A DNA stretch of 64,000 nucleotides from Caulobacteraceae bacterium (GTDB lineage: Bacteria; Pseudomonadota; Alphaproteobacteria; Caulobacterales; Caulobacteraceae): contig JAIYCQ010000043.1 in NCBI GenBank assembly GCA_027487945.1, positions 62,001 through 126,000 of the forward strand, in the 5' to 3' direction. Each line of letters begins with the position of its first letter. Position 1 is the stretch's first letter. Below are positions 20,012-41,732 of this stretch, one piece after another. The translations under genes and the position numbers were made by a program. The notes beneath the pieces were generated by a model, which saw nothing but the letters and a program-made list of their open reading frames with translations, was not told the DNA's origin and searched no databases.

Positions 20012-20029
20012 GTGTCACAAAACTTTAGT
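20012..20029 (+). promoter_or_regulatory. PhoB-box-like direct repeat before pstS
   Basis: GTGTCAC-AAAA-CTTTAGT has the PhoB layout of two 7-bp half-sites separated by a 4-bp AT-rich spacer (11-bp period). The first half matches CTGTCA(C/T) at 6 of 7, the second more weakly. GCTTAGAGG at 20037-20045 is a possible -10 region. The rest of the 310-bp gap 19800-20108 shows no gene or strong structure. Confidence 0.5.
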
Positions 20030-20108
20030 CGCCACCGCTTAGAGGCCTGAACGTGAGGGGGGCGTCTCGCGTGGAGCTCCATAACCAAATGCCCCGATGA
20101 GGATGACG

Positions 20109-21122
20109 ATGAAGAAGCTCGTGCTCTGTGGAGTTGCGGCGCTTGCCCTGACCGCCTGCAATCAGAACGCCCCCGCCGACAAGGGTGGCGTAGACCGCAA
20201 CGCGATCGTCCTCATCGATGGTTCGAGCACCGTCTACCCGATCACCGAAGCGCTCGGTGAAGAGTTTCAGAACGCCGCCGGCACACGGGTCACCGTTGGC
20301 CTTTCAGGGACCGGCGGCGGCTTCAAGAAGCTCTGCCGCGGCGAGATCGACATCGCCACGGCCTCGCGTCCGATCAAGGCGGAGGAAGTCGAACTCTGCA
20401 AACAGAGCGGTGTCGAGTTCATCGAACTTCCCGTGGCGCTCGATGCGCTCGCCGTGATCGTTCACCCGGGCAACAGCTTCGTCGACTGCCTGACGGTCGC
20501 CGAACTGAAGACCATCTGGTCGCCGGAGGCCCAGGGCAAGATCACCACCTGGAATCAGGTCCGTCCCGGCTTCCCCGCCGAGCCGATCAAGCTGTTCGGC
20601 GCCGGGACCGACTCCGGCACGTTCGACTACTTCACCACCGCGATCAACGGTGAGGAGGGCGCGTCGCGCGGCGATTACACGGCGACCGAGGACGACAACG
20701 TCACGATCACGGGCGTGGGCGGCGACAACTTCTCGCTCGGCTTCCTGGGGCTCGCCTACGTCACCGAAAATGCCGGCAAGGTTCGTCCTGTGCCGATCCG
20801 CCAGGCCAACGGCGTCTGCGTGGCTCCGTCGGTCAAGGCCGCCCGCGACGCGTCCTACCAACCGCTCTCCCGCCCCCTGTTCTTCTACGTCAACAAGAAG
20901 CATGCCGATGAGCGTCCGCATGTCGGCGCGTTCATCAAGTTCGCGTTCAGCCCGGCGGAAAGCGAGAAGCTGGTGGCCGAGGTTGGCTACGTTCCGCTTC
21001 CGACCGAGGCCTACAGCCTGGCGCTCGCCAAGTTCGAAGCCCGCAAGACCGGCAGCTTCTTCGATGGCGGCTCCCGGGTCGGGGTGACGGCCGAGGAACT
21101 GCTCGCCGACGCCGGAAAGTAG
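20109..21122 (+). CDS. pstS: PstS, phosphate-binding lipoprotein of the high-affinity phosphate importer
   Basis: 337 residues. Three in-frame ATGs occur (20097, 20103, 20109); the last is preceded at 5 nt by GAGGA, so I take it as the start, giving [17 protein letters not shown] with the lipobox LTAC and Cys17 as the lipidated residue. Phosphate-contact motifs are visible: [13 protein letters not shown], the [23 protein letters not shown] segment, and [12 protein letters not shown]. It captures phosphate in the periplasm for PstCA. First gene of pstSCAB; pstC follows after 63 bp, and a PhoB-box-like site is upstream. Confidence 0.96.
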
Positions 21123-21185
21123 CCCGTCAGGTCGTCATTGGCGGCGAGGGGCGATCAGCCCCGCCCCACCGTTTCGAGGAACACC

Positions 21186-22124
21186 GTGTCGCAGAGCCTT
21201 GATGAAGGTCAAACATTCGCCGCGCTCAAGAGCAGCGGCTTCCTGCGGCGCGGGCGGGTCGTCGCCCAGGCGATGCAGATCATCCTGTTCGCCTGCGCGG
21301 CGCTCTCGGTGTTCATCACCGGCGCCATTCTCTGGGTTCTCGTCTCGGAATCCTGGCTGTTTTTCAGTCAGATACCGCTGGTCACCTTCCTGACGGACAC
21401 GCAGTGGACCCCCGCGTTCACCAATGCCCGCTACGGTATCCTGCCTCTTCTTTCGGCCACACTCTGGGCGGCCGGGATCGCCATGGCGGTGGCGACCCCG
21501 CTCGGGCTGGTCCTCTCGGTCTACCTGAGCGAGTTCGCCCAGCCGCGCGTGCGTGAGGTCCTCAAGCCGATCCTTGAGATGCTCGCCGCCGTGCCCACCG
21601 TGGTGTTCGGGTACTTCGCGCTTCTGTTCCTCACCCCCCTGGCCAAGCAGTTCATCCCTGGACTTTCAGGATTCAATCTCCTGGTGCCCGGCTTTGTCAT
21701 GGGGATCATGATCCTGCCCTACGTGGTCTCGATCAGCGAGGACGCCATGCGCGCCGTGCCGATGACGCTGCGCGAAGGGGCGTTCGCGCTCGGGATGAGC
21801 CGGTGGCGCACAGCCTTTTCGGTCGTCATTCCCGGCGCCTTTTCCGGGGTGACCGCCGCCTACCTGCTGGCCTTCGCCCGCGCTGTCGGCGAGACCATGG
21901 TCGTGGCGATCGCCGCAGGCCAGAACCCGAACCTGACTGCCGATCCGCGCGAGGGTGCCGCGACCATCACCGCCTACATCGTGCAGATGAGTCTGGGCGA
22001 CCTGCCGCATGGCTCGCTGGCCTACTCGACCATCTTCGCGACCGGCCTGGTGCTGTTCCTGATCACCCTGGCCTTCAACGTGCTGGGCTTCTTCCTGCGC
22101 CGCAAATTCCGTGAGGCCTACTGA
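21186..22124 (+). CDS. pstC: PstC, phosphate ABC transporter permease
   Basis: 312 residues from GTG 21186, which has GAGGA at 21176-21180 with 5-nt spacing; the longer frame from 21138 has no SD. Six membrane segments are visible, with the PstC landmarks VYLSEFAQPRVREVLKPILEML, AAVPTVVFGYFAL and the EAA-loop AMRAVPMTLREGAFALGMSRW. With PstA it forms the inner-membrane channel. Its stop overlaps the pstA start (TGATG), and GETMVVAIAAGQNP is the conserved late motif of the family. Confidence 0.95.
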   Translation: MSQSLDEGQTFAALKSSGFLRRGRVVAQAMQIILFACAALSVFITGAILWVLVSESWLFFSQIPLVTFLTDTQWTPAFTNARYGILPLLSATLWAAGIAMAVATPLGLVLSVYLSEFAQPRVREVLKPILEMLAAVPTVVFGYFALLFLTPLAKQFIPGLSGFNLLVPGFVMGIMILPYVVSISEDAMRAVPMTLREGAFALGMSRWRTAFSVVIPGAFSGVTAAYLLAFARAVGETMVVAIAAGQNPNLTADPREGAATITAYIVQMSLGDLPHGSLAYSTIFATGLVLFLITLAFNVLGFFLRRKFREAY

Positions 22125-23041
22125 TGGCGGGCGAACTCAATGAACGGCGCATTGTCGCCACATCCAAGGCCCAGGACCTCGTCTTCGCGGTGCTCGGAAT
22201 CATCGTGCTGTTCTTCGCGATGGCGATGCTGGCGACCCTGGTCGCCGACCTGCTGATCGACGGTCTCTCCCGGATCGACATGCAGTTCCTGACCGACTTC
22301 CCTTCGCGGCGTCCGTCGCAGGCGGGCATCCTCTCGGCCTGGGTCGGGACCACCCTGGTGATGTTCGTGACCGCGCTGCTGGCGATTCCGCTCGGCGTTG
22401 GCGCGGGCCTGTATCTTGAGGAGTACGCGCCGAAGAACTGGCTGAGCGATCTCATCGAGATCAACGTCAGCAACCTGGCCGGCGTCCCGTCGATCATCTA
22501 CGGCCTGCTGGCGCTCGGCTTCTTCGTCTATGGCCTCGGCATGGGGCAGACCGTTCTGGTCGGCGGCATGGTGCTGGCCCTGCTGATCCTTCCCATCGTG
22601 GTCGTTGCGACGCGCGAGGCGGTGAGGGCGGTGCCGTCAGGCCTGCGCGAGAGCGCCTATGGCCTGGGCTGCAACCGCTGGCAGGTGGTCTGGAGCTATG
22701 TCCTTCCCTCGGCCCGCCCGGGCATCCTGACCGGCGCCATCGTCGGCCTGTCGCGCGCCATCGGTGAAACGGCGCCTATCATCACGATCGGCGCGCTGAC
22801 CTTCATCGCCTTCCTGCCGCCGAGCCCGATCCAGGCCTCGCCGCCGTTCCTGAACTTCGACTGGCTGAACTCGCCGTTCACGGTGATGCCGATCCAGATG
22901 TTCAACTGGACATCGCGGCCTCAGGCCGGGTTTCACGAGAATGCCGCCGCCACCGGCGTGCTGCTGCTGGGCATGACCCTGGTCATGAACGGCTTTGCGA
23001 TCTTCCTCCGCTATCACCTGCGCAAGGGGCTCAGATCATGA
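22124..23041 (+). CDS. pstA: PstA, phosphate ABC transporter permease
   Basis: 305 residues, six membrane segments, with [41 protein letters not shown] and the EAA loop [25 protein letters not shown], followed by [14 protein letters not shown]. All are PstA landmarks. It pairs with PstC in the inner membrane. Translationally coupled to both neighbours: it overlaps pstC by 1 nt and pstB by 4 nt (ATGA). The PstA-type periplasmic end contains [19 protein letters not shown], consistent with family members. Confidence 0.95.
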
Positions 23042-23886
23042 GCGAGCTCAAGCGCGCGTCCACATTCCTCAGCGATAACTCCGGCGACCCGACCATGACC
23101 CAGGCCTCCACGTCCGAGACCCCGGCCGCGATCCGCGCCGACGTTCGCGACCTCAAGTTCTGGTACGGCAAGTTCCAGGCGCTGAACGGCGTCTCCATGC
23201 CGATCCACGATCGCAAGGTGACGGCCATCATCGGCCCGTCGGGCTGCGGCAAGAGCACCCTGCTGCGCTGCTTTAACCGCATCCACGATCTCTATCCGGG
23301 CGTCCGCTACGAGGGCGAGATCAACCTGGCGCCGGAGCATATCAACCTGGTCGCCAAGGGCATCGACCCGATCCTGGTGCGGCTGCTGGTCGGGATGGTG
23401 TTCCAGAAGCCCAACCCGTTCCCCAAGTCGATCTTCGAGAACGTCGCGGCCGGGCTCTATGTCCGCGGCATCCGCAACAAGTCGGAGGTCGAAGGCCGTG
23501 TCGAGGAGGCCCTTCGCCAGGCGGCCATCTGGAACGAGGTCAAGGATCGCCTGAACAAGCCTGCCTTCGAGCTCTCCGGCGGCCAGCAGCAGCGCCTCTG
23601 TATCGCCCGGGCCCTGGCCCCCAAGCCGAAGCTGCTGCTGCTCGATGAGCCGACCTCGGCGCTCGATCCGATCGCCACGGCCAAGATCGAGGAGCTGATG
23701 GACAGCCTGGTCAAGGACGTGACGATCCTGATCGTCACCCACAACCTGGCCCAGGCCGCCCGGATCTCGAAGTACACGGCCTTCATGCACATGGGGAACC
23801 TCGTCGAGTTCGGGGAAACCGAGCAGCTGTTCACCAACCCCGCCGTCACGCAGACCCAGGACTACGTGACCGGCCGGTTCGGCTAG
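23038..23886 (+). CDS. pstB: PstB, phosphate ABC transporter ATPase
   Basis: 282 residues including a 30-residue leader before the ATPase core. Walker A is GPSGCGKST, the characteristic PstB phrase [18 protein letters not shown] follows, then [15 protein letters not shown], signature [16 protein letters not shown], Walker [14 protein letters not shown] and H-loop [17 protein letters not shown]. It powers PstCA from the cytosol. In E. coli the Pst complex also signals phosphate status to PhoR through PhoU; no phoU is present here, and an ArsR-type gene follows after 9 bp. Confidence 0.97.
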
Positions 23887-23895
23887 GGTCGCGCG

Positions 23896-24261
23896 GTGGT
23901 GGCGCAGGCGATGAAGCAGGGCGCTCCGAAGCGGTCGACCAGACCGGCGAGGCCGGGTGAGGATCCGCAGCGCCTCGCGCTGCTGGCCAAGGCCCTCGGC
24001 CATCCGGCCCGGATCAGCATCGTTCGCCTGCTGCAGGCCAATGCCAGCTGCGCCGGCGCCGATATCGTCGACCGTATCGGCCTGGCCCAGTCCACCACGG
24101 CCGAACACCTGAGGATCCTGCGCGAAGCCGGGATCGTGCTGAGCGAGGTCGAGCGACCGCGGACGGCCTATTCGCTAAATCCGGCCATTCTCGCGCCGCT
24201 GGCCGAGTTCCTCTCGGCGCTGGCGCACTCGTCGGGGCGGGACACTCCGTCGGCGGCGTAA
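23896..24261 (+). CDS. ArsR-family winged-helix transcription regulator
   Basis: 121 residues from a GTG start 9 bp after pstB. The fold is clear: LLAKALGHPARISIVRLLQANASCAGADIVDRIGLAQSTTAEHLRILREAGIVLSEVERPRTAYSLNP, in parts shortened here, i.e. the ArsR pattern with recognition helix QSTTAEHLRILREAG. A single Cys (NASCAG) is present but not the CVC metal box of ArsR/SmtB, so it is more likely a non-metal or redox-type member. The spacing suggests co-transcription with pstSCAB, where phoU or phoB would usually be found. The target is unknown. Confidence 0.9.
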   Translation: MVAQAMKQGAPKRSTRPARPGEDPQRLALLAKALGHPARISIVRLLQANASCAGADIVDRIGLAQSTTAEHLRILREAGIVLSEVERPRTAYSLNPAILAPLAEFLSALAHSSGRDTPSAA

Positions 24262-24497: not shown

Positions 24498-26030
24498 ATG
24501 ACCGGCCTGAAGAAATACAGCGCGCTTGCGTTTGCACTCACTGCGACCATGGCCCTGGCGGCCTGCGGGCCCGACGGCGTCGTCTCGCCCGGCGAAGGCG
24601 CCTTCCCGCCCGGCGGCGGTGGTGGTACCGGCGGCGGCGGTGGAACGCTCCCCCCGGGCACGCCGGCCGCTGACTGCCCGACGGGCTTCGCCAACGTCGG
24701 CCTGATCGCCGCGGGCACGCTGCGCGTCTGCCAACTGCCGAGCCAGATCGACGGCGCCCTGACGGTGCCGCTGCGCGCCGGCACCATCTACTCGATCAGC
24801 GGTCGCACCTCGGTCGGCTCCGACCGCGGCGTCGACCCCACCGCCCCGACCCCGGGCAGCACCCAGGGCATCCTGACCATCGAAGCGGGCGTGCGCATCT
24901 TCGCCTCGGGCGGTTCGGACTACCTGCTGGTCAACCGCGGCTCGCAACTGTTCGCCGAAGGCACCGACAGCCAGCCGATCGTCTTCACCAGCCGCCAGAA
25001 CGTTGAAGGCACCACCACCGAGACCTCGCAAGGTCAATGGGGCGGTATCGTCCTCGCCGGCCGCGCGCCGCAGGCCAACTGCGCCAACAACGGCGTGACC
25101 CTGACCTCGCCGGTCACCTGCACCGGCACCGTTGAGGGCACCAGCGCGTTCTACGGCGGCAACACGCCGGCCGACAACTCGGGCCGTCTGCGCTACGTCC
25201 AGATCAAGTTCTCCGGCTTCGAAATCTCGTCGGGCAACGAACTGCAGGGCCTGACCATGGCCGGCGTCGGTTCGGGCACCACGGTCGAGTTCATCCAGAT
25301 CCACAACAGCTCGGATGACGGCATCGAAATCTTCGGCGGCACCGTCAACCTGCGCCGCATCGTGATCACCGGCGCCGACGATGACGGCCTCGACACCGAT
25401 ACCGGCTGGCGCGGCGGGGCCCAGTTCGGCATCGTGACCCAGCGTCCGCCCAACGCGACCAGCCGCAGCGCCGGTTTCGAGTTCTCGGCGGCTCCGGCCG
25501 CCACGCCGCTGGCTTCGCGCTTCGTGTCGCAGCCGAAGATCGCCAACTGGACCCTGGTCGGCCGCAACTCGCCGACCGACGCCCACACGGTCGCTCACTT
25601 CGACACCGGCACGGACGCCACGATCATCAACTCGGTGTTCACCAGCGTCACCGGTTCGCTGGCCGGCTGTATGGCCATCAATGACGCCGACACGGGCACC
25701 AGCGGCGTGACCTTCAGCTCGGTGTTCATGTCCTGCCCGATCTCGTACCGTGCGGCTAACGCCGTGCTGTCGGCCGCCGCCTTCACCGCCGGCACCAACA
25801 ACACCGCGGCCGGGACCTCTACGCTGACTGCTCCGGCCTCGGGCACCAGCCTGAGCAACCAGACGCTGACCTTCATCAACGGCGCCAACGAAAACGCGGT
25901 TGTTCCGGCCAGCGCCAGCACCGTCTACAGCTACTTCGTGAACACCACCTACATCGGCGCCGTGCAGAACGCCTCCGACACCTGGTGGCGGGGCTGGACC
26001 TGCGGCCTGACGGCCGGCCAAACCTGCTGA
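24498..26030 (+). CDS. elpS: ElpS-like extracellular lipoprotein of phosphate starvation
   Basis: 510 residues from ATG 24498 (GGTGGAG upstream; the frame is open to 24486). Signal peptide with lipobox LAAC, Cys23 lipidated, then a glycine-rich linker (PPGGGGGTGGGGGTLPPG), then a Gly/Thr/Ser-rich domain of short beta strands with many T-I-x-x-G patterns (LTIEAGVRIFA, GGIVLAGRAPQ, QLTMAGVGSGTTVEF type), consistent with a right-handed beta-helix. Four paired cysteines fall in it. In C. crescentus the lipoprotein ElpS is made in phosphate starvation, is exported by the type II system, and its gene lies by the gsp genes and a TonB receptor gene, as here. I assign it by that shared context and sequence type; the homology was not run. 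Confidence 0.78.
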   Translation: MTGLKKYSALAFALTATMALAACGPDGVVSPGEGAFPPGGGGGTGGGGGTLPPGTPAADCPTGFANVGLIAAGTLRVCQLPSQIDGALTVPLRAGTIYSISGRTSVGSDRGVDPTAPTPGSTQGILTIEAGVRIFASGGSDYLLVNRGSQLFAEGTDSQPIVFTSRQNVEGTTTETSQGQWGGIVLAGRAPQANCANNGVTLTSPVTCTGTVEGTSAFYGGNTPADNSGRLRYVQIKFSGFEISSGNELQGLTMAGVGSGTTVEFIQIHNSSDDGIEIFGGTVNLRRIVITGADDDGLDTDTGWRGGAQFGIVTQRPPNATSRSAGFEFSAAPAATPLASRFVSQPKIANWTLVGRNSPTDAHTVAHFDTGTDATIINSVFTSVTGSLAGCMAINDADTGTSGVTFSSVFMSCPISYRAANAVLSAAAFTAGTNNTAAGTSTLTAPASGTSLSNQTLTFINGANENAVVPASASTVYSYFVNTTYIGAVQNASDTWWRGWTCGLTAGQTC

Positions 26031-26040
26031 CGACGGACGC

Positions 26041-26068
26041 GGCGGCGGCTCCCTCCGGAGCCGCCGCC
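26041..26068 (+). terminator. Strong hairpin between the lipoprotein and receptor genes
   Basis: Perfect 12-bp stem GGCGGCGGCTCC / GGAGCCGCCGCC with loop CTCC, 10 bp after the stop, then TGCTTTCG. It may end or attenuate transcription, giving more lipoprotein than receptor mRNA. Confidence 0.7.
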
Positions 26069-26109
26069 TGCTTTCGCCCAGTCCGTTGAACCCCTTCAAG
26101 GCGTAGATC

Positions 26110-28725
26110 ATGAAGAGACTATCCCTGACCCTGACCGGGGTCCTGCTGGCCACGAGCGCGTTGATCGCGCCGGGGCTGGCTTTCGCCCAGGCTCCCGCGC
26201 CCCAGTCCGAACCGGATGTGGAAGTCGAAGAACTCATCGTGCTGGGAGCCAACATTCCCGAGCCGAACCGCGAAAGCTCGGAGGTCGGCGCCTTTCTGAC
26301 CGTTGAGGACCTGCAACGGACGGGCGACCCGTCCGCCGCCGACGCCCTGACCCGGGTGACCGGCCTCACGGTGGTCGAGGGGCGCTTCATCTACGTCCGG
26401 GGCCTTGGCGAGCGCTATTCCTCGGCGCTTTTGAACGGCTCCCCGCTGCCCAGCCCCGAGCCGCTTCAGCGCGTGGTTCCGCTCGATCTGTTCCCGTCCA
26501 ACATCCTCGAAAGCGTCACCGTCCAGAAGACCTACTCGGCCAACTTCCCGGGTGAGTTCGGCGGCGGCGTCATCGACCTGCGGACCATCAACGCACCCAA
26601 GGAGCCCTTCTTCTCCTTCTCGTCCTCGCTGGGCGCCAGCACCGAGACGTCGCTGAAGAACGGCTTGACCTACTTCGGCTCGCGCACCGACGACACCGGC
26701 TTCGATAACGGCACGCGCGATGTGCCCGACCTCATCGACGCCGCTTTCGGCGCGGGTGTGCAGATCAACCGCGCCAACTTCACCACCGACGAGCTGTCGG
26801 CCATGGGGCGCGCCCTGGTCAATGCGCCGCTGCGCCTCCTGCAGGAGAGCGAGATCCCGGTGAACTTCGGCCTCGATGTCGCCGGCGGCTTCTCGCGGGA
26901 CACCGGCATCGGCGAGCTTGGTGTGTTCGCGGTGGCCGGCTACAGCAATAGCTGGCAGACCCGCGAGGGCTTCCAGGAAGAGGGGCGCTTCTCGGGCGCT
27001 GTGCTGGTCGCCGACACCAGCAAGGCCTTCGTGTCGACCCAGAACGACATTCAGTGGAACCTGTTGGCCGGCCTGTCGCTGTCCAACCCCGACCATGAAC
27101 TGAAGTGGACGAACTTCTATGTTCGCACCACGACCAAGGAAGCCCGCACGAGCTCCGGCCCGGACCTCGGCGCCGGCGGCGCGATAATCCGTGACGACTA
27201 TACCGAGTGGTTCGTCCGCCAGCTCTTCTCGAGCCAGCTGGCCGGCGAGCACTTCTTCATGGACGGGGCGCTGGGGCTCAACTGGCGCGCCAGCTACGCC
27301 ACCACCTCGCGCGACGCCCCGTATGAGAGCCGCTTCCAGTACGGCCAGAACGCAACTGGAGACTTCATCCACAACCCGTCCAACCTCATCTCCTTCAGTG
27401 ATCTGGACGAGGACGTGATCTCCGGCGGCGCCGACTTCAGCTACACCCTGCCGCTCTCGAACCAGCGCGAGGCCGTCTTCTCCTTCGGCGTCTCCCGCAC
27501 CGACAGCAGCCGGGAGTCGGTTCGTCACGACCTGCAGCTCGCGGTCGTCAATTCGCTGACCGACAACCAACGCCTGATGCGCGTCGACTTCCTGTTCTCG
27601 GATTACAATCTCAACGAGGACACGATCGAGCTGCGCGAAGTGTCCGGCTCCAACGGGGCCGGCGCCTATGAAGCCGATCTGGTCGTCGACGCGGTCTACG
27701 CCCAGGTCGACGCGGAGATCTTCCCGCTGATCCGGACGACCATCGGCCTCCGCTACGAGGACGGCAGCCAGTCGGTGACGCCGCGCGATCTGTTCGGCGG
27801 CGCGACCTTCCCGTCCACCACCTTGAAGGAGCAGTATCTGCTGCCCGCCTTCACCGGCACCTGGAACTTCGCCGAGGATCAGCAGTTCCGCATCGGTGTG
27901 TCCAAGACCATCGGTCGCCCGCAGTTCCGCGAACTGGCGCCCCAGGCCTACGTCGACCCGGAAAGTGACCGCGAGTTCACCGGCAACCCGTTCCTGGTCG
28001 ATACGAAGATCCTGAACCTGGATGCCCGCTACGAGTGGTACTTCGCCCGCCAGCAGTTCCTGACCGCCGGAGCCTTCTACAAGGATCTGGAGCGCCCTGT
28101 GGAATCGGTGGTGGTGCTCACCGGCGATCAGCGGCAGCAGTCGTTCCTCAACGCGCCGGCGGCCGTCATCTACGGCGCCGAGCTCGAGGCCAAGAAGTAC
28201 TGGGAGTTCGCTGACGTCGGTTCGCCCTTCATCGCCGACAAGCGTTGGCTGGTGCAGGCGAACTACACCTGGTCCAAGTCCGAGGTTCAGGTCGAGGCCG
28301 GCGATACCGTCAAGACCCAGGGCGGCGGCGGCGTGGACGAACAGGCTTCGTTCTTCATCGCCGACGGCAGCCGTCTCCAGGGCCATTCCGATCACGTCTT
28401 CAACCTGCAGCTTGGCTGGGAAGACGACTCGGCCCGGTCGCAGGCGACGTTCATCCTGAACTACGTCAGCGAGCGGATCACCGCCCGCGGGGCCGGCGCA
28501 GCCGGGACGCGGGAGCCCGACTACATTCAGGATCCGGGCATCTTCGTCGACTTCGTCTACCGCAAGGAATTCGACTTCGTGGGTCGCGAAGTGGGCTTCG
28601 CCCTTGAGTTGCGCAACCTGCTTGGCACCGAGTACGACGAGTACCAGGAGCTGGGCAACAAGATCCGGATCAATACGTACGACCTGGGCACCAGCGCCTC
28701 GATGAGCCTGAGCGCGCGCTTCTAA
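26110..28725 (+). CDS. TonB-dependent outer-membrane receptor
   Basis: 871 residues: signal peptide to about residue 26 (ALIAPGLAFAQ), a short acidic stretch ending with TonB-box-like EELIVLGANI, a plug domain (ADALTRVTGLTVVEGRFIYVRGLGERYSSALLNGSPLPS, in parts), and a long barrel ending in a C-terminal aromatic, SMSLSARF, typical of beta-barrel insertion. GEFGGGVIDLRT is the family motif near the plug end. It transports a ligand using TonB energy. It is the direct downstream neighbour of the ElpS-like gene and precedes the gsp operon, an arrangement also found in Caulobacter. The ligand may be a phosphate-bearing molecule (inference from context). Confidence 0.92.
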   Translation: MKRLSLTLTGVLLATSALIAPGLAFAQAPAPQSEPDVEVEELIVLGANIPEPNRESSEVGAFLTVEDLQRTGDPSAADALTRVTGLTVVEGRFIYVRGLGERYSSALLNGSPLPSPEPLQRVVPLDLFPSNILESVTVQKTYSANFPGEFGGGVIDLRTINAPKEPFFSFSSSLGASTETSLKNGLTYFGSRTDDTGFDNGTRDVPDLIDAAFGAGVQINRANFTTDELSAMGRALVNAPLRLLQESEIPVNFGLDVAGGFSRDTGIGELGVFAVAGYSNSWQTREGFQEEGRFSGAVLVADTSKAFVSTQNDIQWNLLAGLSLSNPDHELKWTNFYVRTTTKEARTSSGPDLGAGGAIIRDDYTEWFVRQLFSSQLAGEHFFMDGALGLNWRASYATTSRDAPYESRFQYGQNATGDFIHNPSNLISFSDLDEDVISGGADFSYTLPLSNQREAVFSFGVSRTDSSRESVRHDLQLAVVNSLTDNQRLMRVDFLFSDYNLNEDTIELREVSGSNGAGAYEADLVVDAVYAQVDAEIFPLIRTTIGLRYEDGSQSVTPRDLFGGATFPSTTLKEQYLLPAFTGTWNFAEDQQFRIGVSKTIGRPQFRELAPQAYVDPESDREFTGNPFLVDTKILNLDARYEWYFARQQFLTAGAFYKDLERPVESVVVLTGDQRQQSFLNAPAAVIYGAELEAKKYWEFADVGSPFIADKRWLVQANYTWSKSEVQVEAGDTVKTQGGGGVDEQASFFIADGSRLQGHSDHVFNLQLGWEDDSARSQATFILNYVSERITARGAGAAGTREPDYIQDPGIFVDFVYRKEFDFVGREVGFALELRNLLGTEYDEYQELGNKIRINTYDLGTSASMSLSARF

Positions 28726-28780: not shown

Positions 28781-28809
28781 CTGTCACCATAGCGTCGCAA
28801 AACCTGCAC
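28781..28809 (+). promoter_or_regulatory. PhoB-box-like site before the gsp operon
   Basis: CTGTCAC-CATA-GCGTCGC-AAAA-CCTGCAC is three half-sites with an 11-bp period; the first is a full match to CTGTCA(C/T), the other two are partial. A further CTGCATC is at 28814. TATCAT at 28847-28852 could be the -10. The site lies 65 bp before gspC. Confidence 0.45.
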
Positions 28810-34107: not shown

Positions 34108-34122
34108 AAAAGGACACTTCCC

Positions 34123-34569: not shown

Positions 34570-35020
34570 CCGCCGCCGCGAGGCCGGCTTCACCCTGACC
34601 GAGCTTATGGTCGTGCTGGCCATCATCGGCCTGCTCGCCACGGTGGTCGTGCTGGCGACCACCGATGGCCGCCCGTCCGGAGCCCAGGAGGCCGAGCGCT
34701 TCGCGGCGCGGCTGGTGCGCGCCCGCGACGAGGCGCTGCTGACCAACCGCACCGTCGAGGTGACCGTGTCCCCTGGCGGCTACGCCTTCCGGGTCGGTGG
34801 GCCGCAGGGCTGGACGCCGCTGGAGGAGGGGCCCTTCCGGGCCGTGGCATGGTCCACCGAGACGCAGCTGTCGGCGGGTGCGCTCGTCGATCGCGTCGCC
34901 TTCGATCCGGCCGGTGTCGCCACCCCGGCCGACTACGTCATCACACGCGGCCGCCAGAGCAGCCGTGTCACCGTCGATACAGCGGGAAATGTCAGGGTCG
35001 ATGACGCGACGGCGCGCTGA
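34541..35020 (+). CDS. gspH: GspH, minor pseudopilin
   Basis: 159 residues from ATG 34541 (ATG 34544 equally possible), after the strong SD GGGAGGGGGGAGAGAAGA inside gspG. Leader SDRRREAG then FTLTELMVVLAIIGLLATVV, the pseudopilin signature with +5 Glu, and the beta-rich domain (EVTVSPGGYAFRVGGPQGWTPL...). It is a minor pseudopilin of the tip complex with GspIJK. Overlaps gspG by 29 nt; gspI starts inside its 3' end. Confidence 0.93.
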   Translation: MMPTSATGSDRRREAGFTLTELMVVLAIIGLLATVVVLATTDGRPSGAQEAERFAARLVRARDEALLTNRTVEVTVSPGGYAFRVGGPQGWTPLEEGPFRAVAWSTETQLSAGALVDRVAFDPAGVATPADYVITRGRQSSRVTVDTAGNVRVDDATAR

Positions 35021-35366
35021 GCAGGGGTTCACCCTTATCGAGGTGCTGGTGGCGATGTCTGTGTTCAGCATCGCGGCGCTGGCGCTCGTCAACGTGTCCG
35101 GAGAGAACACCCGCACCGCTGCGGCGATCGAGGCGCGCGTCATCGCCGGCGTCGTGGCGGATAACCGCATTGCCGAGGCCCTGATCGACTGGCCGCCGAT
35201 CGGCGAGTCGGCCGGCGTCGACCAGGCCGGCGACCGGCCCTGGCGCTGGGCGCGGAAAGTCAGCCCGACCAGCGATCCGGAGGTCGTTCGCATCGATGTG
35301 ATCGTCGGGCGTCCCGGCGACCGCCAGACCCTGGCTGAAGCCACGGCGTTCCGGGGGCGCCGATGA
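35001..35366 (+). CDS. gspI: GspI, minor pseudopilin
   Basis: 121 residues from ATG 35001 (ATG 34989 adds MSGS). Leader MTRRRAEQG, then FTLIEVLVAMSVFSIAALALVN with +5 Glu, followed by a short globular domain ending AEATAFRGRR. The ExTAAAIEAR-to-VADNRIAEAL helix pattern is typical of GspI. It forms the tip with GspJ and GspK. It overlaps gspH by 20 nt and gspJ by 4 nt (ATGA). Confidence 0.92.
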   Translation: MTRRRAEQGFTLIEVLVAMSVFSIAALALVNVSGENTRTAAAIEARVIAGVVADNRIAEALIDWPPIGESAGVDQAGDRPWRWARKVSPTSDPEVVRIDVIVGRPGDRQTLAEATAFRGRR

Positions 35367-35950
35367 AGGGCTTCACCCTCGTCGAGATGCTCGCGGCGCT
35401 GTTCGTCTTCGGGCTGGTCTCCGCCGCCGGCGCGCTGGTCATGGGGTCGACCCTCGACGGTCAGGCGGCGGTGCGGACACGCATGGACCAGCTGGGCGCC
35501 TTCCAGCGCAGCCGGATGCTGCTCAAGTCGGACCTCGACCAGCTGTCGACCCGGCGCACGCGTGATGCGGGGGGGCGGCAGGCCGCGGGCGCTTTCGTCG
35601 GCCGTCAGCCGGCGGAGGGGGCGCCGTTCATCATGCTGACGCGGCACGGCTGGGAGAACCCGGGCGCGGCGCAGCGGCCGTCGGTGCAGCGTGTGGACTA
35701 CCGACTGTCCGAAGGCCGGCTTGAGCGGATCACCCGCACGGCCCTGGACGGAACGCCCGCCGGCGCGCCTCAGATTCTGCTCGAGGGTGTTGATCAGCTG
35801 CAGGTGGCCTACCTCTACCGGGGCGCCTGGTCGCCGACCTGGACGGCGCTGCCGACCGCGGAACTGCCGCAGGCTGTCCGCATCACCTTCCGCGTCGAGG
35901 GGCTCGGGCGGTTCGAGCAGGTGCTGGTCACCCCGGGAAGCCTGCGATGA
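35363..35950 (+). CDS. gspJ: GspJ, minor pseudopilin
   Basis: 195 residues with a very short leader, MKG, then FTLVEMLAALFVFGLVSAAGAL. The globular part contains DLDQLSTRRTRDAGGRQ and ends FEQVLVTPGSLR, consistent with GspJ (RDA-GG and FxLTxxGW regions: FIMLTRHGWENPG). It is a component of the GspIJK tip complex. It overlaps both neighbours by 4 nt. Confidence 0.93.
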   Translation: MKGFTLVEMLAALFVFGLVSAAGALVMGSTLDGQAAVRTRMDQLGAFQRSRMLLKSDLDQLSTRRTRDAGGRQAAGAFVGRQPAEGAPFIMLTRHGWENPGAAQRPSVQRVDYRLSEGRLERITRTALDGTPAGAPQILLEGVDQLQVAYLYRGAWSPTWTALPTAELPQAVRITFRVEGLGRFEQVLVTPGSLR

Positions 35951-36924
35951 GGCGTCCCGACGAGAAGGGCGCGGCCCTGCTGACCGTTCTGCTGCTGGTC
36001 GCGGTGATGTCGATCATCGCGGTTAGCGTGCTCGATGACATCCGCTTCGGCGTCCGCCGCACCGCCAACGCTACGGGCCGGGGGCAGGCCCAGCTCTATG
36101 CGCTCGGCGCCGAGGAGCTGGCCCGGGTGCGGATCGCGCGCCTGGCCCGGCTGGACTCCGGCCGCACCACGCTGAAGGGCGACTGGAACGGCCGCGCCTT
36201 CCGGTTCCCCATCGAGAACGGCGTGATGACGGGTCGCATCACCGACGCCACCGGCTGCTTCAATCTGAACAGCGTCGCGGCTGGCCAGGGGACCCGGCTG
36301 GTGCGCCGGGAGCTGGGCGTGCGCCAGTTCGTGATCCTGATGGCCGCGCTCGGCATTCCGAGCGGCCGCGGCCAGACCCTGGCTGACAACCTCGCGGACT
36401 GGATCGACAGCGACGACATCGGCATGGGCGGCGCCGAGGATCAGGACTATGCCCGCGCCGCGCCGGTCTACCGCACCGGCGGCGCGATGCTGGCCGAGGT
36501 CAGCGAGCTGCGCGCGGTGCGCGGCTTCACGCGCGACGTCTATGACCGCCTGCGGCCCTACGTCTGCGCGCCGCCGACGACGGACCTGTCCCCGATCAAC
36601 GTCAACACCCTGGCGCCGGATCGCTCGGTCCTGATCACCATGGTGACCCTGGGCGCCATTCCCGCCGAGGCGGGCGCCCGGCTCCTCGCGGGCCGTCCGG
36701 CCGATGGCTGGGATAACCTGCAGACCTTCTGGAACGACCCTGTCCTCGTCGACCGGGTGCCGGAGGACGCCGCGCGCGACCAGATCGCGCTGCGCACCCG
36801 CTTCTTTTCTCTCGACGCCGACGTGACCTACGCCGGCTCATCCGCCACGCTCAACACCCTGCTCGAGGTCGACTCCTCGGGCGTGGTGAAGCTCGCGGCG
36901 CGCCGCTGGACCCGCGACGAATGA
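35947..36924 (+). CDS. gspK: GspK, large minor pseudopilin
   Basis: 325 residues, the largest pseudopilin as expected. The leader MRRPDEKG is followed by AALLTVLLLVAVMSIIAVSV; as in other GspK proteins Glu at +5 is absent (Leu), which is normal for the tip subunit. The body has GCFNLNSV, the calcium/SAM-like inserted alpha domain (LADNLADWIDSDDIGMGGAEDQDY) and PINVNTLAPD. It caps the pseudopilus with GspI and J. It overlaps gspL by 4 nt (ATGA). Confidence 0.95.
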   Translation: MRRPDEKGAALLTVLLLVAVMSIIAVSVLDDIRFGVRRTANATGRGQAQLYALGAEELARVRIARLARLDSGRTTLKGDWNGRAFRFPIENGVMTGRITDATGCFNLNSVAAGQGTRLVRRELGVRQFVILMAALGIPSGRGQTLADNLADWIDSDDIGMGGAEDQDYARAAPVYRTGGAMLAEVSELRAVRGFTRDVYDRLRPYVCAPPTTDLSPINVNTLAPDRSVLITMVTLGAIPAEAGARLLAGRPADGWDNLQTFWNDPVLVDRVPEDAARDQIALRTRFFSLDADVTYAGSSATLNTLLEVDSSGVVKLAARRWTRDE

Positions 36925-38018
36925 TCCCCACACGCCTTGTCTTCTTCACGACCCCTGACCAGCCCTGGCCTTGCCTGACGGTTTCCGACGAAGGCGCGGT
37001 GCTTCAGCGCGGCGTGCTGCTGCCCGACGCCGCGCAGCCGGAAACACCGGTCATCGACCGTCTGGTCGTGCCCGGGGCGGATGTGGTCGCCCGTTGGCTG
37101 GATCTGCCCGATCGCAATGATCGGCAGGCGCGGTCGGCGGTCGCCTTCCTGCTTCAGGATGACATCGCCGACGACGGCGGCGACCTGCACATCTGCATCG
37201 GGGCCGGGGATTCCGGCGGACAGCGGCTGGCCGCGATCACCGGCGTGTCACGGGTGCAGGGTTGGCTGGACGCGGCCGCGGCGCGCGGCGTCTCCCCGGC
37301 CTCGGTGACGCCCGACTACCTCATGCTGCGACCCGATGACGAGGGTCAGACCCTGACGGCCGGCTTTGGCGATCTGCTGGCGGTCCGTGGCCCCGGCATC
37401 GCCTTCTCGGCCGAGCGGCCGCTCGCCGAGGCGGTTCTGGCGGACAGACCGCGTCGGATGCTGGCGCTCAGCGAACTGGAGCCGATGCTGGCCGGCGCGG
37501 CCAGCTGGCCGGAGATCAACCTTCTACAGGGAGTCTTCGGTCCCCGGTCCGAGCAGCCGACGGTCGGAAACGTCCGGCGACTGGTCATCCTCGCCCTGGT
37601 GCTGCTGGTGTCGCCGGTGCTGCTGAGCGTCGCCCGGATCGGCGTCGACGTCATCGCCGCGCGGCACATCGAAGGCCGCGCCATCGCCGGGGCGCGGGCC
37701 ATCTGGCCCCGGTCCATCCCGGCGGACGCCGACATCGAGGTCGTCCGCGCCAGGCTGGCGGAGCAACAGGGCGCCGACCGTTTCGCCGACCTGACCGCTG
37801 ACCTCTTCAGCGCCGTCGAGCGGACGCCGGGCGCGCAGATCGACAGCCTCGCCTATGGGCCGGCCGGCCTGAACGCAGGCCTGTCCTATGGCAACTACTC
37901 GGACATGGATCAGCTGATCACCGCCGGCGGAAAGGTCGGACTGCTGATCTCCGCCGACAGCACCGTCACCGAAGGCGGGCGCATCACCAGCGATATCAGC
38001 ATCAGGAGGCAGCCATGA
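36921..38018 (+). CDS. gspL: GspL, cytoplasmic/inner-membrane linker of the secretion system
   Basis: 365 residues: an actin-like cytosolic domain (about 1-205: AFLLQDDIADDGGDLHICIG, DYLMLRPDDEGQTL), one membrane segment (LVILALVLLVSPVLLSVARIG, about 214-234) and a ferredoxin-like periplasmic domain (about 250-365) ending SDISIRRQP. GspL binds GspE at its N-terminus and GspM in the periplasm. It overlaps gspK and gspM by 4 nt each. Confidence 0.92.
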   Translation: MIPTRLVFFTTPDQPWPCLTVSDEGAVLQRGVLLPDAAQPETPVIDRLVVPGADVVARWLDLPDRNDRQARSAVAFLLQDDIADDGGDLHICIGAGDSGGQRLAAITGVSRVQGWLDAAAARGVSPASVTPDYLMLRPDDEGQTLTAGFGDLLAVRGPGIAFSAERPLAEAVLADRPRRMLALSELEPMLAGAASWPEINLLQGVFGPRSEQPTVGNVRRLVILALVLLVSPVLLSVARIGVDVIAARHIEGRAIAGARAIWPRSIPADADIEVVRARLAEQQGADRFADLTADLFSAVERTPGAQIDSLAYGPAGLNAGLSYGNYSDMDQLITAGGKVGLLISADSTVTEGGRITSDISIRRQP

Positions 38019-38494
38019 CCCTGCTCCGCACAGCCAGGGACGCCTGGGCGCTGCGCACGCCGCGCGAAAGGCTCATGCTTCAGGGCCTCGCCGTCGTTCT
38101 GGGCGGCGTCCTGTTCTGGTACGGCCTGCTCACGCCGCTGGACGCCGCACGGGACTGGGCCCGGGCCGAGCGTCAGGCCGCCGCCGCCGATCTCGCCGCC
38201 GTCACCGCCCTCGCCCGGGGCGGCGCCGTCCGCGCCGCGCCGTCGTCCGGTCGGGGACTGGCCGGTGTCGTCGACGTCGCGGCGGCGGCGTCGGGGATCG
38301 TCATCGACCGACGCCGCGAGGAGGCGGACGGTCGCCTGACCGTCTGGATCACCGCCGTCCAGCCGCAGATCCTGATGCAGTGGATCATCGGCCTGCGAAC
38401 TGCTCACGGCGTGTCGGTGGTCGGGATGAGCGCGTCCAAGCTCGACGCCGGCAGCCTGACCGTGGAAGTCTCGTTCGAACAGGCCGGGTCATGA
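38015..38494 (+). CDS. gspM: GspM, inner-membrane partner of GspL
   Basis: 159 residues: short N-terminus with RTPRERLMLQGLAVVLGGVLFWYGLLTPL (typical GspM segment, one membrane helix about 20-40), then a coiled-coil-prone stretch and a small ferredoxin-like domain (TVWITAVQPQILMQWIIGL, VEVSFEQAG at the end). It pairs with GspL. ATGA overlaps at both ends. Confidence 0.9.
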   Translation: MTLLRTARDAWALRTPRERLMLQGLAVVLGGVLFWYGLLTPLDAARDWARAERQAAAADLAAVTALARGGAVRAAPSSGRGLAGVVDVAAAASGIVIDRRREEADGRLTVWITAVQPQILMQWIIGLRTAHGVSVVGMSASKLDAGSLTVEVSFEQAGS

Positions 38495-39195
38495 GTAACC
38501 GCAATCTGCTTCTGATCTTCCTTGCTGTACTCGTCGCGGCGCTTCCGCTCACCGTGCCGCTGACCGTCGGTCTGGCGGCCGGGTCCGGAGGTCGCCTGTC
38601 CTTCGCCGAGGCGAGGGGGACGATCTGGCGGGGCGAAGTGCGCCGCGCCGCGCTCGGGGCGCTCAACCTCGGCGACCTGACGGTGGGTCTTGATCCGCTC
38701 GCGCTGCTGACGGGTCAGACCCGGATCGCGATCCGGGCCTCCGGCGGCGATGTGAAGGGGGCCGGGCGGATCTCCCTGACCCGCCGGTCGCCGGGAGTCG
38801 AGCGGTTCACCGGCTCCGTGCCGCTGGCAGCGCTTGGCCTCGCAGGCTCGCTGACCGGCGACCTGAACGTCCGCGATGTCACCGCAGTTTTCGACAAGGG
38901 CGTCTGCCACAAGGCGGAGGGGCAGATTGCGGCGGTCGTCAACGGGCTGGGCCCCAACCCGGTTGCGCTGAGCGGCCGTCCGGTGTGCCAGGGCGCCCTG
39001 CTGGCGCTGCCGCTGGCCGGGACGGTCGAGGGTATGGCGCTTGACCTGGTGGTGCGGGTGCAGGCCGATGGGCGCTATCGTCTCGACGCGACGGTCAAGA
39101 CGACGGACCCGGCCTTCGGCGCGATCCTCGCGGCGGAAGGGTTCAGCAGCGTTCCCGGCGGCTACAGCCGGAGCAGTGAGGGTAAACTGACATGA
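38491..39195 (+). CDS. gspN: GspN, type II secretion protein N
   Basis: 234 residues from ATG 38491, which overlaps gspM's stop; the frame is open further upstream but inside gspM. One N-terminal membrane segment (LLLIFLAVLVAALPLTVPLTVGLAAG), then a domain with FAEARGTIWRGEVRRAAL, the PF01203-type start of GspN (SARGTLWSG-like), and C-terminal YRLDATVKTTDPAFGAIL. GspN is an accessory inner-membrane/periplasmic part found only in some systems. It overlaps the following unknown gene by 4 nt. Confidence 0.88.
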   Translation: MSNRNLLLIFLAVLVAALPLTVPLTVGLAAGSGGRLSFAEARGTIWRGEVRRAALGALNLGDLTVGLDPLALLTGQTRIAIRASGGDVKGAGRISLTRRSPGVERFTGSVPLAALGLAGSLTGDLNVRDVTAVFDKGVCHKAEGQIAAVVNGLGPNPVALSGRPVCQGALLALPLAGTVEGMALDLVVRVQADGRYRLDATVKTTDPAFGAILAAEGFSSVPGGYSRSSEGKLT

Positions 39196-39665
39196 GGACG
39201 TCATCACGCGCGGCGGTTGGCGGGGTCCTGGCGGCCATCGCCTGTACGCTGTCGACGCTCGCCCTGGCGGAGACGGCCCCCGCGCCGACTGGCGGACTGC
39301 CGCTCGAGGCCCTGCCGACCCAGACGCTCGCCGGCGGTCAGTGCGCACTGTTCCTGTGGGCCCGCACCACGCCCCCGCGCCGCGTGTTCATGGCGCTGCA
39401 GGACCCGGCGGTCGCCCGGATCCGGATCGAGGGGCGAAGCGTCGACCTGCCGCGCACGGCGGGCGAAGGCGACAGTGTCTACGGCCACACCCCGATCCAG
39501 CGCTTCGAGGGCGAGGGGATCACCCTGACGATCAAGATCCAGATGGACGCCCGCAGCGGGCTTGTCGGCGGCGCGGTGATCCCTTCGGGCTCGCTCGAGT
39601 ATCGCGATGCGAAAGGCTGGGAGACCATTATTCCCGTCGCCGGGATCGTCGGGTGCCAGCCCTAG
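39192..39665 (+). CDS. Unknown secreted protein, last gene of the gsp operon
   Basis: 157 residues with a signal peptide (RAAVGGVLAAIACTLSTLALAE, cleaved after ALA). The mature protein begins near TAPAPTGGLPLEALP and has two cysteines (GGQCALFLWART and the C-terminal VGCQP) that could pair. It is beta-rich (IRIEGRSVDLPRTA, ITLTIKIQMDARS). I recognise no domain. It starts inside the gspN stop (ATGA), so it is co-translated with the secretion genes and probably belongs to the system, for instance as a periplasmic accessory or substrate. gspO converges 10 bp beyond its stop. Confidence 0.75.
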   Translation: MRTSSRAAVGGVLAAIACTLSTLALAETAPAPTGGLPLEALPTQTLAGGQCALFLWARTTPPRRVFMALQDPAVARIRIEGRSVDLPRTAGEGDSVYGHTPIQRFEGEGITLTIKIQMDARSGLVGGAVIPSGSLEYRDAKGWETIIPVAGIVGCQP

Positions 39666-39675
39666 TCTGTGAGCG

Positions 39676-40341
39676 CTACCAGCCGGCGCGCCCGATCGGT
39701 CCGTAGAGCCAGGTCAGCCAGGCCCCGATCGCCAGATAGGTCCCGTAGGGCAGGGCGGTGTCCAGGCTCGGCGCCCGACGCGCGATGACCCGCGCCAGCA
39801 CCCAGCTCAGGCCGGCCAGCGAGGCCCAGACCACCACGCTCGGCAGTCCTGCCCAGCCGACCCAGGCGCCGATGGCCGCCAGCAGGCGCGCGTCGCCACC
39901 GCCCAGCCCGTCCCGCCCCCGAAGCCGCTTGTAGAGCGCGGCGAGGCCCGCCAGCACGCTGAAACCGAGCGCTGCGCCGATCAGGTGATCCAGCGGACTC
40001 CCCGGGCCGATGAACAGGCTGGCGGCCAGACCGGCGGCGCCGAGCGGCAGGGTCAGGATATTGGGCAGCCAGAAGTGCTCGCCGTCGATCACGGCGATCA
40101 GCAGCAGCGCCACCCCGAGCAGGGCGCCGACCAGAGCAACGGGCCAGGCCAGGGTCAGACTCGACCAGGCCCCGATGATCAGGGCGGCAAGGCTCATGGC
40201 CGCGGCGCGCCGCCAGCGGACCGGCGGCGCCGCTTCGAGGGCGGGCAGTCGCACCGACGCCACCGCGGCGACCAGGCCGAGGGCCGCGGCCGCCAGCGGC
40301 GGGATCAGGTCGTGGACGAGGTTCGACAGCAGAGCGCTCAA
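39676..40341 (-). CDS. gspO: GspO, prepilin peptidase (A24 aspartic protease) without N-terminal cysteine domain
   Basis: 221 residues from TTG 40341, giving MSALLSNLVHDLIPP. It has about seven hydrophobic segments and both catalytic aspartates: D86 in AVIDGEHFWLPNILTLPL and D150 in GLGGGDARLLAAIGAW (GxGD-type). The usual N-terminal methylation domain with CxxC pairs is missing; the protein starts with only about 80 residues before D86, so it may cleave but not methylate in the usual way. It removes leaders from GspG-K. It overlaps phoX by 4 nt (TTGA), with phoX upstream on the same strand. Confidence 0.9.
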   Translation of the reverse strand: MSALLSNLVHDLIPPLAAAALGLVAAVASVRLPALEAAPPVRWRRAAAMSLAALIIGAWSSLTLAWPVALVGALLGVALLLIAVIDGEHFWLPNILTLPLGAAGLAASLFIGPGSPLDHLIGAALGFSVLAGLAALYKRLRGRDGLGGGDARLLAAIGAWVGWAGLPSVVVWASLAGLSWVLARVIARRAPSLDTALPYGTYLAIGAWLTWLYGPIGRAGW

Positions 40342-41732
40342 GCCTTGAGCGACGCCCAGGGGCCCGTCACCGCCAGGGTGATCCCCGGCCAGTAGATGTT
40401 GACGAACAGGGTCGAGCCGTCCGGCGAGAAGCAGACGCCGGCCAGCTCGGCGTTCTCGCGGAACACGTTTCGGCCGATCGTATAGACCTTGCCCTCGGGC
40501 GTGACGCCCTTGAGGTGATTGCGCTTGGTGTCCGAGTAGCGGTCCTCGCAGACCACCAGATGCCCCCAGGGGGCGATGGCGATGTTGTCGGCGTAGTCGA
40601 GGACGTCGGCGTCGGTCGATTCCAGGAACAGCTGCGCCTTGCCGGGCGCGGACGCTTCGTCCGACTGGCCCTCGCGAGCGCCGGGGACGTAGCGCATGAT
40701 CTGGCCCAGGCCCTTGGCGCCGCCCGACGTGCAGGTGAAGTAGAGCTCGTCCTTCCCCCAGAAGATGCCCTCGCCCCGGGCGAACACCGCCGCGCCGGCC
40801 TTGGCGCCGCGCAGACGCAGGTCGTCGTCCGGGCTTTCCGGGTTGTCGAGGTCGACCCAGCGGGCGTCGCGCCAGGCGCCCTTGACCATGCCGACCGCGC
40901 CCTTCCAGTTGCGCGTGTCGCAGCCCTCCGGCGCGTCCGCGAAGGCCAGCGCCTGCAGCCGCCCGCCCTTGGCCAGTTCGCCCGGCGCGTTCGGGATGAA
41001 GCGGTAGAGCAGGCTGTCGGCGACATCCTCGGTCATGTAGACGATGCCGGTGCGCGGATCGACGCAGGCAGCCTCGCGCTTGAAGCGGCCCATGGCCTTG
41101 AGCGGGACGGGGTCGACCAGGCCCCGCGCGGACGCCGGCACCTCGAAGGCCCAGCCGTGATCCTTGCCGCCGCCGTCGCCGGCCCTGGCGGTGTTCTCCT
41201 CGCAGCTGAGCCAGGATCCCCAGGGAGTCACCCCTCCGGAGCAGTTGACCGCCGTGCCGGTCAGGCTGAGGTGCTCGCGCTCCAGCTGCCGCGTGCGCAG
41301 ATTGTAGACCAGCGTCGTCGTGCCGCCGGGGAGGGCGCGACCCGCGGCGTCGAGGTCGAAGGCCTTGTTTGCGTCCAGCTTGCCGGCTTGGCGACCTCTG
41401 ACCCCGGTCGGGCCATGGTTGACGTCGCCGACCTTGAGCTCGTGATTGCGGATCAGGACGACGCGGTCGTCACCCAGCGCGAAACTGCCCATGCCGTCGA
41501 ACTTGTAGGGGACGATCAGCCCGTCGTTCATGGTGTCCCCGGCCTGGGACACGATGCTGTAGGAGAAGCCTTTCGGCAGATCGAACACGCCGAACGGGTC
41601 GGTCTGGAGCGGTCCGTAGCCCTCGACCTCGTTGCGGTAGGTCTCTTCCGCCGCCGCCTGGGCGCAGGCGAGACCGGAGAAGGCGAGGGCGACGGCGGAC
41701 GTGCCGATGAATCCGCGACGGGACAGGGACAT
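40338..41732 (-). CDS. phoX: PhoX-family alkaline phosphatase, Tat-exported
   Basis: 464 residues with twin-arginine signal MSLSRRGFIGTSAVALAFSG and cleavage near LACAQA. It is of the DUF839/PhoX family: FDGMGSFALGDDRVVLIRNHEL, GGVTPWGSWLSCEEN, EDVADSLLYRFIPN, and LVVCEDRYSDTKRNHLKG are family patterns; PhoX uses calcium and iron and is folded in the cytosol before Tat export. Its job would be to release phosphate from esters outside the inner membrane. It is the first gene of a pair with gspO, whose start overlaps its stop. It lies beside the gsp operon, so type II export across the outer membrane is plausible but unproven. No well-spaced Pho box was found before it. Confidence 0.9.
   Translation of the reverse strand: MSLSRRGFIGTSAVALAFSGLACAQAAAEETYRNEVEGYGPLQTDPFGVFDLPKGFSYSIVSQAGDTMNDGLIVPYKFDGMGSFALGDDRVVLIRNHELKVGDVNHGPTGVRGRQAGKLDANKAFDLDAAGRALPGGTTTLVYNLRTRQLEREHLSLTGTAVNCSGGVTPWGSWLSCEENTARAGDGGGKDHGWAFEVPASARGLVDPVPLKAMGRFKREAACVDPRTGIVYMTEDVADSLLYRFIPNAPGELAKGGRLQALAFADAPEGCDTRNWKGAVGMVKGAWRDARWVDLDNPESPDDDLRLRGAKAGAAVFARGEGIFWGKDELYFTCTSGGAKGLGQIMRYVPGAREGQSDEASAPGKAQLFLESTDADVLDYADNIAIAPWGHLVVCEDRYSDTKRNHLKGVTPEGKVYTIGRNVFRENAELAGVCFSPDGSTLFVNIYWPGITLAVTGPWASLKA

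Follow-up and report, generated by a model that had tools for sequence, protein, structure and literature searches.

A block of phosphate-acquisition and secretion genes occupies positions 20097 to 41732 of a 64,000-nucleotide stretch of Caulobacteraceae bacterium DNA, which was analyzed over its whole length and is called the window here (assembly GCA_027487945.1, contig JAIYCQ010000043.1, positions 62,001 to 126,000). Profile searches and open reading frames identified the transporter operon pstSCAB, an ArsR-type regulator, the lipoprotein gene elpS and a TonB-dependent receptor (TBDR), the type II secretion system (T2SS) operon gspC-gspN, a small gene named orf157, gspO, and phoX. We regard this block as probably a lineage-specific, PhoB-controlled locus for scavenging phosphorus from the outer to the inner membrane. 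An earlier note made from the sequence alone had placed the named genes side by side, and all of them were recovered, with positions that match its span to within a few bases; the ArsR/SmtB-type regulator and orf157 were missing from it. The features are listed below, with Pho boxes scored by the position weight matrix (PWM) described in the text.

20012 to 20030, forward: Pho box before pstS; held-out PWM 11.4 bits at 20013, rank 3 in 64 kb, p 0.007
20097 to 21122, forward: pstS, lipoprotein-type phosphate-binding protein; TIGR02136 300.9 bits (cut-off 206.6); lipobox LTAC by eye
21138 to 22124, forward: pstC, short type, 328 aa; TIGR02138 252.9 bits (cut-off 196.45)
22124 to 23041, forward: pstA; TIGR00974 267.7 bits (cut-off 193.45)
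23038 to 23886, forward: pstB; TIGR00972 362.3 bits (cut-off 343.2)
23896 to 24261, forward: ArsR/SmtB-type regulator, 9 bp past pstB; NF033788 59.3 bits, PF01022
24355 to 24385, forward: three Pho-box repeats upstream of elpS, with an 11-bp period by eye; PWM 8.6 bits at 24368, rank 9, p 0.018
24498 to 26030, forward: elpS-like lipoprotein with an LAAC lipobox; beta-rich fold that is probably a beta-helix
26039 to 26070, forward: hairpin between elpS and the TBDR gene, possible attenuator; fold z -4.8
26110 to 28725, forward: TBDR, partner of elpS; PF00593, PF07715
28731 to 28764, forward: strong hairpin between the TBDR gene and gspC, probable terminator; fold z -7.0, similar stem in 4 aligned loci
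28781 to 28820, forward: Pho box upstream of gspC, with repeats every 11 bp; PWM 13.3 bits at 28782, rank 1 in 64 kb, p 0.003
28874 to 39195, forward: gspC-gspN, complete T2SS operon (Pfam T2SS families; TIGR01707 for GspI); starts at C 28874, D 29347, E 31410, F 32887, G 34123, H about 34570, I about 35025, J 35363, K 35947, L 36921, M 38015, N 38491
39192 to 39665, forward: orf157, small T2SS-associated protein; no Pfam or NCBIfam match
39676 to 40341, reverse: gspO prepilin peptidase; PF01478; TTG start overlapping the stop codon of phoX
40338 to 41732, reverse: phoX alkaline phosphatase; PF05787 284.8 bits (cut-off 24); N-terminal SRRGFIG
41760 to 41797, reverse: Pho box before the phoX-gspO transcript; PWM 7.7 bits at 41789, rank 15, p 0.020

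All four Pst subunits scored above the curated cut-offs and were encoded in a single operon, and Pfam and NCBIfam searches recovered GspC through GspM together with the prepilin peptidase. The identity of ElpS rests on locus order compared with the published map of Cc0170, that is, on a lipobox, a TBDR neighbor, and adjoining gsp genes, all of which were present in the window. The N terminus of PhoX carries a twin-arginine-like motif (SRRGFIG). The stop codon of phoX runs into the TTG start of gspO; the latter gene is therefore most likely cotranscribed with phoX, and the two probably share one promoter. The hairpins after elpS and after the TBDR gene suggest that gsp is its own transcription unit and that more ElpS than TBDR may be produced. 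The ArsR/SmtB-type gene occupies the slot of phoU after pstB in genomes G006 and G113 and is kept in the related loci L001, L002, and L004.

The PWM was derived de novo by expectation-maximization from elpS promoters only (131 extracted, 97 nonredundant, with the clade of the window excluded), and p values were obtained from 1,000 dinucleotide shuffles of each 200-bp promoter. The motif from the 97 promoters was TGnCACaaAaCTGTCACa, an 11-bp direct repeat that matches the PhoB, or Pho-box, consensus. In the window, such boxes, which are predicted PhoB sites, were found at four promoters. The earlier note had reported Pho-box-like repeats before three transcripts; the boxes themselves withstood the held-out PWM and the shuffles, while their count had to be raised to four (pstS, elpS, gspC, and phoX). 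The top match of the entire 64 kb lay 92 bp upstream of gspC, and among 638 segments of the window, each 200 bp long, 0.2% equaled the score of the gspC promoter, 0.5% that of pstS, 1.3% that of elpS, and 2.0% that of phoX. None of the control gene starts carried a box (shuffle p of 0.68 for the TBDR, 0.80 for arsR, and 0.14 for gspO alone), and elsewhere in the genome, the phoU promoter gave a p of 0.001 and the phoR promoter a p of 0.52. The window was not box-rich overall, with three matches of at least 10 bits (the density in the fetched loci, which were centered on such promoters, was 18.7 per 100 kb). Thus, it is the placement of the boxes and not their number that is informative. The pstS and gspC boxes were conspicuous in alignments of four related loci, with the core of the pstS box and the gspC box conserved in all four, though the best PWM match at gspC of L001 was at -135, outside the aligned box. 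The footprint of the phoX box was conserved across three loci, scoring 10.7 bits in L181 and 13.1 bits in L182.

The box before gspC also recurred outside the window. A score of at least 12 bits was reached at gspC in 30 of the 62 other nonredundant loci, at none of 250 gspE/F/J/K starts and 77 TBDR starts, and in 0.6% of shuffled gspC promoters. Among the positive loci were members of the Caulobacterales and Sphingomonadales, as well as Parasphingopyxis loci whose fetched 10 kb contained no elpS match. In C. crescentus, transcriptomes place the T2SS, Pst, TBDRs, and phosphatases within a 47-gene PhoB regulon, as described in PMC11208175. The suggestion that the whole forms one Pho-controlled block is supported by the boxes at four promoters, by the recurrence at gspC, and by the published regulon. 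Shared Pho control is well supported and has largely been published already for C. crescentus; how widely the gspC Pho box is distributed is apparently a new finding, and a search of the open-access literature returned no report of PhoB control of a sphingomonad T2SS. It is likely that this T2SS serves mainly as a phosphate-starvation exporter of putative substrates.

Across 199 sampled Caulobacteraceae genomes, ElpS was found in 86 and a T2SS with a high-scoring GspD in 50, of which 49 also encoded ElpS (Fisher p about 1e-21, uncorrected for kinship; this T2SS type was defined by a GspD score of at least 480 bits, a cut set after the list was seen). There were 85 other genomes with ElpS, and the elpS regions fetched from 80 of them had an adjoining TBDR gene in every case, gsp genes nearby in 40, and pst genes nearby in 10, scored as a pstB match of at least 50% identity. 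Thus, the TBDR is the constant partner of ElpS, and the T2SS is a frequent but dispensable companion. This agrees with the account in PMC2996285, according to which a gspC-N mutant still displays ElpS at its surface and loses only the release of the protein, which probably depends on a protease secreted by the T2SS. Since surface display persists in that mutant, we rejected the T2SS as the exporter of ElpS, a role that the earlier note had assigned to it, whereas its statement that elpS of C. crescentus adjoins a TonB receptor and gsp agrees with the published map (PMC2996285). Four loci of about 6.1 kb (L108, L116, L117, and L119) carried a gspC-like gene directly before elpS and no other gsp gene there; gspD lay elsewhere in their genomes, and in one of these (G049, locus L116) the distant gsp operon (L047) had its own gspC. 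M28-family peptidase genes were among the commonest gsp neighbors (3 of 85 flank proteins) and are candidates for a T2SS-secreted protease.

The AlphaFold2 model of ElpS was beta-rich (mean pLDDT of 80, pTM of 0.83, 81 residues below 50). Its best structural matches were weak and were to beta-helix proteins such as tailspikes and polysaccharide lyases, with a best E value of 2.2e-3; sequence searches of the PDB found no relatives. Invariant Asp/Glu residues lie between positions 273 and 301. ElpS had no Pfam match at an E value of 0.001, the SusD lipoprotein family included, and its likeness to SusCD/PusCD is one of functional analogy only.

The pst genes of the window are displaced. Of the 198 further genomes in the sample, 3 had PstC copies with 83 to 88% identity, namely G176 (locus L002, of the same clade), G006, and G113, and copies with 90 to 92% identity were present in L004 and L001, which lie outside the 199-genome sample. 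G006 and G113 belong to another genus, and their PhoB proteins are 69 to 71% alike to that of the window's genome; this combination of a close PstC and a distant PhoB points to lateral transfer, by which the pst genes of the window would be xenologous. The window's genome (L160) and G176 (L161) had a phoR-phoU-phoB cluster without pst, while the canonical phoR-pstCAB-phoU-phoB order was kept in G096 and G168. The absence of pst from the canonical place between phoR and phoU-phoB in the window's genome is a feature of the locus and not of the transporter family. A single PstC above the TIGR02138 cut-off, of the short type, was found in each of G000, G199, G200, and G201, and the outgroup G202 (L003) had two, one of them adjoining phoR. 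PhoR was called by its HisKA/HATPase domains together with its place in the gene order and tblastn matches, as the TIGR02966 profile at an E value of 1e-60 was too strict a threshold, finding it in 0 of 11 genomes, including the C. vibrioides control.

A different pst lay near elpS-TBDR, without gsp, in genus g15, where this was seen in 9 of the 80 fetched regions within about 13 kb. It immediately preceded elpS in L131 and followed the TBDR gene in L147, L150, and L154, and in the rest it was about 6 to 12 kb away on the opposite strand; the tenth region with pst was L120, from the clade of the window. Three g15 genomes (G085, G052, and G141) had phoR-phoU-phoB without pst, and the pst genes of G141 were located in L169, beyond the first fetched region. 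Genus g15 shows a parallel and apparently new linkage of pst with elpS-TBDR that does not involve a T2SS.

The elpS and TBDR genes had a history of their own. In pst, the window shared 86% identity with L001 and with L004 alike, and in gsp the values were 85 to 86%, whereas between 24.56 and 28.7 kb it was 88% identical to L001 and 64% identical to L004. When trees were built for ElpS and the TBDR from 69 loci plus the window, the window and L001 fell into a Brevundimonas-dominated group of 30 with a support of 1.0, while the GspE tree grouped the window with L001, L002, and L004 (support of 1.0). The tree conflict and the drop in identity indicate that elpS and the TBDR gene moved as a pair and left the T2SS in place. 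They were swapped as one cassette, and the elpS promoter of the window, which is closer to that of L002, stayed behind. This joint exchange is the best evidence in our analysis that the two proteins work together. Two divergent elpS-TBDR types (24560 to 28700) occur in the close genomes of the window, L001, L002, and L004, as if surface variation were selected; between L001 and L004, GspE was 99% identical, ElpS 59%, and the TBDR 55%.

The full gene order is rare and belongs to a small number of Caulobacter-like bacteria of fresh water. Among the loci examined, pst lay upstream of elpS-gsp in four genomes (that of the window and three relatives), and phoX adjoined gspO in three (the window, L001, and L004). 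Both phoX and elpS were present in 69 sampled genomes, on the same contig in 22, and within 100 kb of each other only in that of the window. The side-by-side order described in the earlier note is hence not general among relatives, and the contiguity is a local assembly and not a family rule. The displaced Pst, the swapped elpS-TBDR cassette, and the phoX-gspO coupling are apparently new with regard to the open-access literature searched. A tRNA-Ser(GCT) gene (41938 to 42028, reverse strand) lies just past the phoX promoter; we rejected it as a mark of the arrival of phoX, as the matching stretches L181 and L182 had no tRNA.

The small protein encoded by orf157 (157 aa) was aligned with 17 homologs, among which one Cys pair is invariant; homologs occur in gsp loci of the Caulobacter, Brevundimonas, Henriciella, Maricaulis, and Sandarakinorhabdus types, and several of its relatives seem by eye to bear a lipobox. 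Its all-beta model had no match in the PDB (best E value of 0.14), so that a secretin pilotin of known fold was not supported. It is possibly a new T2SS accessory protein.

The locus resembles three described systems to different degrees. In C. crescentus, the published map has elpS (cc0170), the TonB receptor gene cc0171, gspC-N, and gspO on the opposite strand in the same way, and elpS is phosphate regulated (PMC2996285), while PMC11208175 assigns the T2SS and Pst of this species to the PhoB regulon. The window differs by a xenologous pst beside elpS and by phoX overlapping gspO. The Hxc T2SS of Pseudomonas aeruginosa is likewise made under phosphate limitation, and its secreted phosphatases LapA and LapB are encoded close by, judging from the locus tags PA0681 to PA0689 (PMC9769906, PMC4899797). 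However, HxcQ is a self-piloted liposecretin (PMC2996285), whereas the N terminus of GspD in the window has no lipobox by eye, which sets it apart from the Hxc-type liposecretins, and the descriptions of Hxc in PMC9769906 and PMC4899797 mention neither elpS-TBDR nor pst. The PUSIII and PUSIV loci of Flavobacterium encode phosphate-inducible ElpS-related lipoproteins with TonB-dependent transporters, one of them beside phoBR; these lipoproteins are 31 to 36% identical to that of C. crescentus and are abundant exoproteins at low phosphate (PMC8115612). They belong to another phylum, and PMC8115612 describes no adjoining T2SS in its account of them, whereas in the window the pair adjoins both pst and gsp genes and was swapped as a cassette.

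These observations can be joined in a model whose PhoB binding, substrates, and import function we infer. PhoR-PhoB, encoded elsewhere in the genome, would activate four transcripts: pstSCAB-arsR, elpS-TBDR, gspC-N-orf157, and phoX-gspO. PhoX and putative T2SS-secreted hydrolases would liberate phosphate or phosphorus-bearing fragments, which ElpS and the TBDR may capture and bring through the outer membrane. At the inner membrane, phosphate would then be taken up by the relocated PstSCAB, the sole Pst found in the assembly, through which PhoR would also sense phosphate. The T2SS would export the enzymes and the protease that frees ElpS, the surface placement of which would be independent of it.

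Several results weigh against this model. The PWM matches of rank 2 (12543) and rank 4 (26503, within the TBDR gene) fall at no known promoter, and the elpS and phoX boxes were modest (p of 0.018 and 0.020), with similar scores occurring away from known promoters. The 12-bit threshold was missed by 32 of the 62 other gspC promoters, and among Brevundimonas-named loci it was reached only by L005, L009, and L047. ElpS occurred without this T2SS in 37 of the 199 sampled genomes, the assemblies in which no second Pst was found are drafts, and the T2SS and the TBDR of C. crescentus are described as constitutive in PMC2996285. Finally, no phosphate family was among the 25 commonest (of 107) Pfam families in 85 flank proteins from 24 other gsp loci, and the view that the flanks of this T2SS generally gather phosphate genes was not supported by that survey. 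For it, 102 proteins were picked from 25 loci and 17, some of up to 536 aa, were dropped by hand; it left out the open-ended PstS-like gene of L003, a lipoprotein gene facing gspO (140.8 bits, below the 206.6 cut-off), and the whole locus L056, in which a true pstS (364 bits) follows gspO.

Such ordinary flank proteins would fit a T2SS that is a general exporter merely lying beside phosphate genes, with a Pho regulon made up of pst, elpS, and phoX only and an inherited gsp adjacency. The 40 of 80 regions in which elpS has no adjoining gsp fit this as well, and so do the 1.7-fold change of gspE/gspL and the equal amounts of mGFP-GspL in rich and poor media (PMC2996285). However, the strongest box of the 64 kb stands before gspC and recurs there in other loci, including those of Parasphingopyxis without an elpS match, and the C. 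crescentus T2SS is counted in the PhoB regulon (PMC11208175), so we consider a general exporter unlikely. Clustering by chance, in which independent rearrangements joined unrelated phosphate genes, is very improbable: the full order is indeed confined to three genomes (the window, L001, and L004), but pst came to lie near elpS in at least two lineages and in several arrangements, phoX joined the same block, the PstS-like gene of L003 and the pstS of L056 both lie after gspO, and a 40-kb target in a 4-Mb genome would be hit in roughly 1% of events by a rough estimate.

An explanation with close to an even chance is that ElpS is itself an enzyme or a substrate-binding exoprotein whose product is imported by the TBDR, with Pst and phoX recruited to the pair and the T2SS mainly releasing ElpS. 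The invariance of the elpS-TBDR pair, its movement as one cassette, and the nine regions with pst but without any gsp all favor it, as do the beta-rich model nearest to beta-helix proteins, the invariant acidic residues, and the polygalacturonase-like homology described for the Flavobacterium relatives (PMC8115612). However, the fold matches are weak, with TM scores mostly of 0.2 to 0.3, and PMC2996285 ties ElpS to supernatant phosphatase activity by association only.

The locus model of PhoB-controlled scavenging turns a vague known link between phosphate starvation, ElpS, and the T2SS into one that can be tested. The recurrence of the gspC box suggests that PhoB control of this T2SS is common to at least two alphaproteobacterial orders, and the displaced pst offers a natural experiment in PhoR-PhoB signaling with a swapped and relocated Pst transporter. 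ElpS-TBDR stands out as the unit whose substrate deserves attention. More tentatively, and with somewhat less than an even chance, ElpS-TBDR may be an exchangeable outer-membrane pair for phosphorus import to which Pst and secreted phosphatases have repeatedly been drawn. The PhoR-PhoB system of this clade would now read a foreign and distant Pst, and the locus would be the phosphorus counterpart of a polysaccharide utilization locus, with its own Pho-controlled T2SS.

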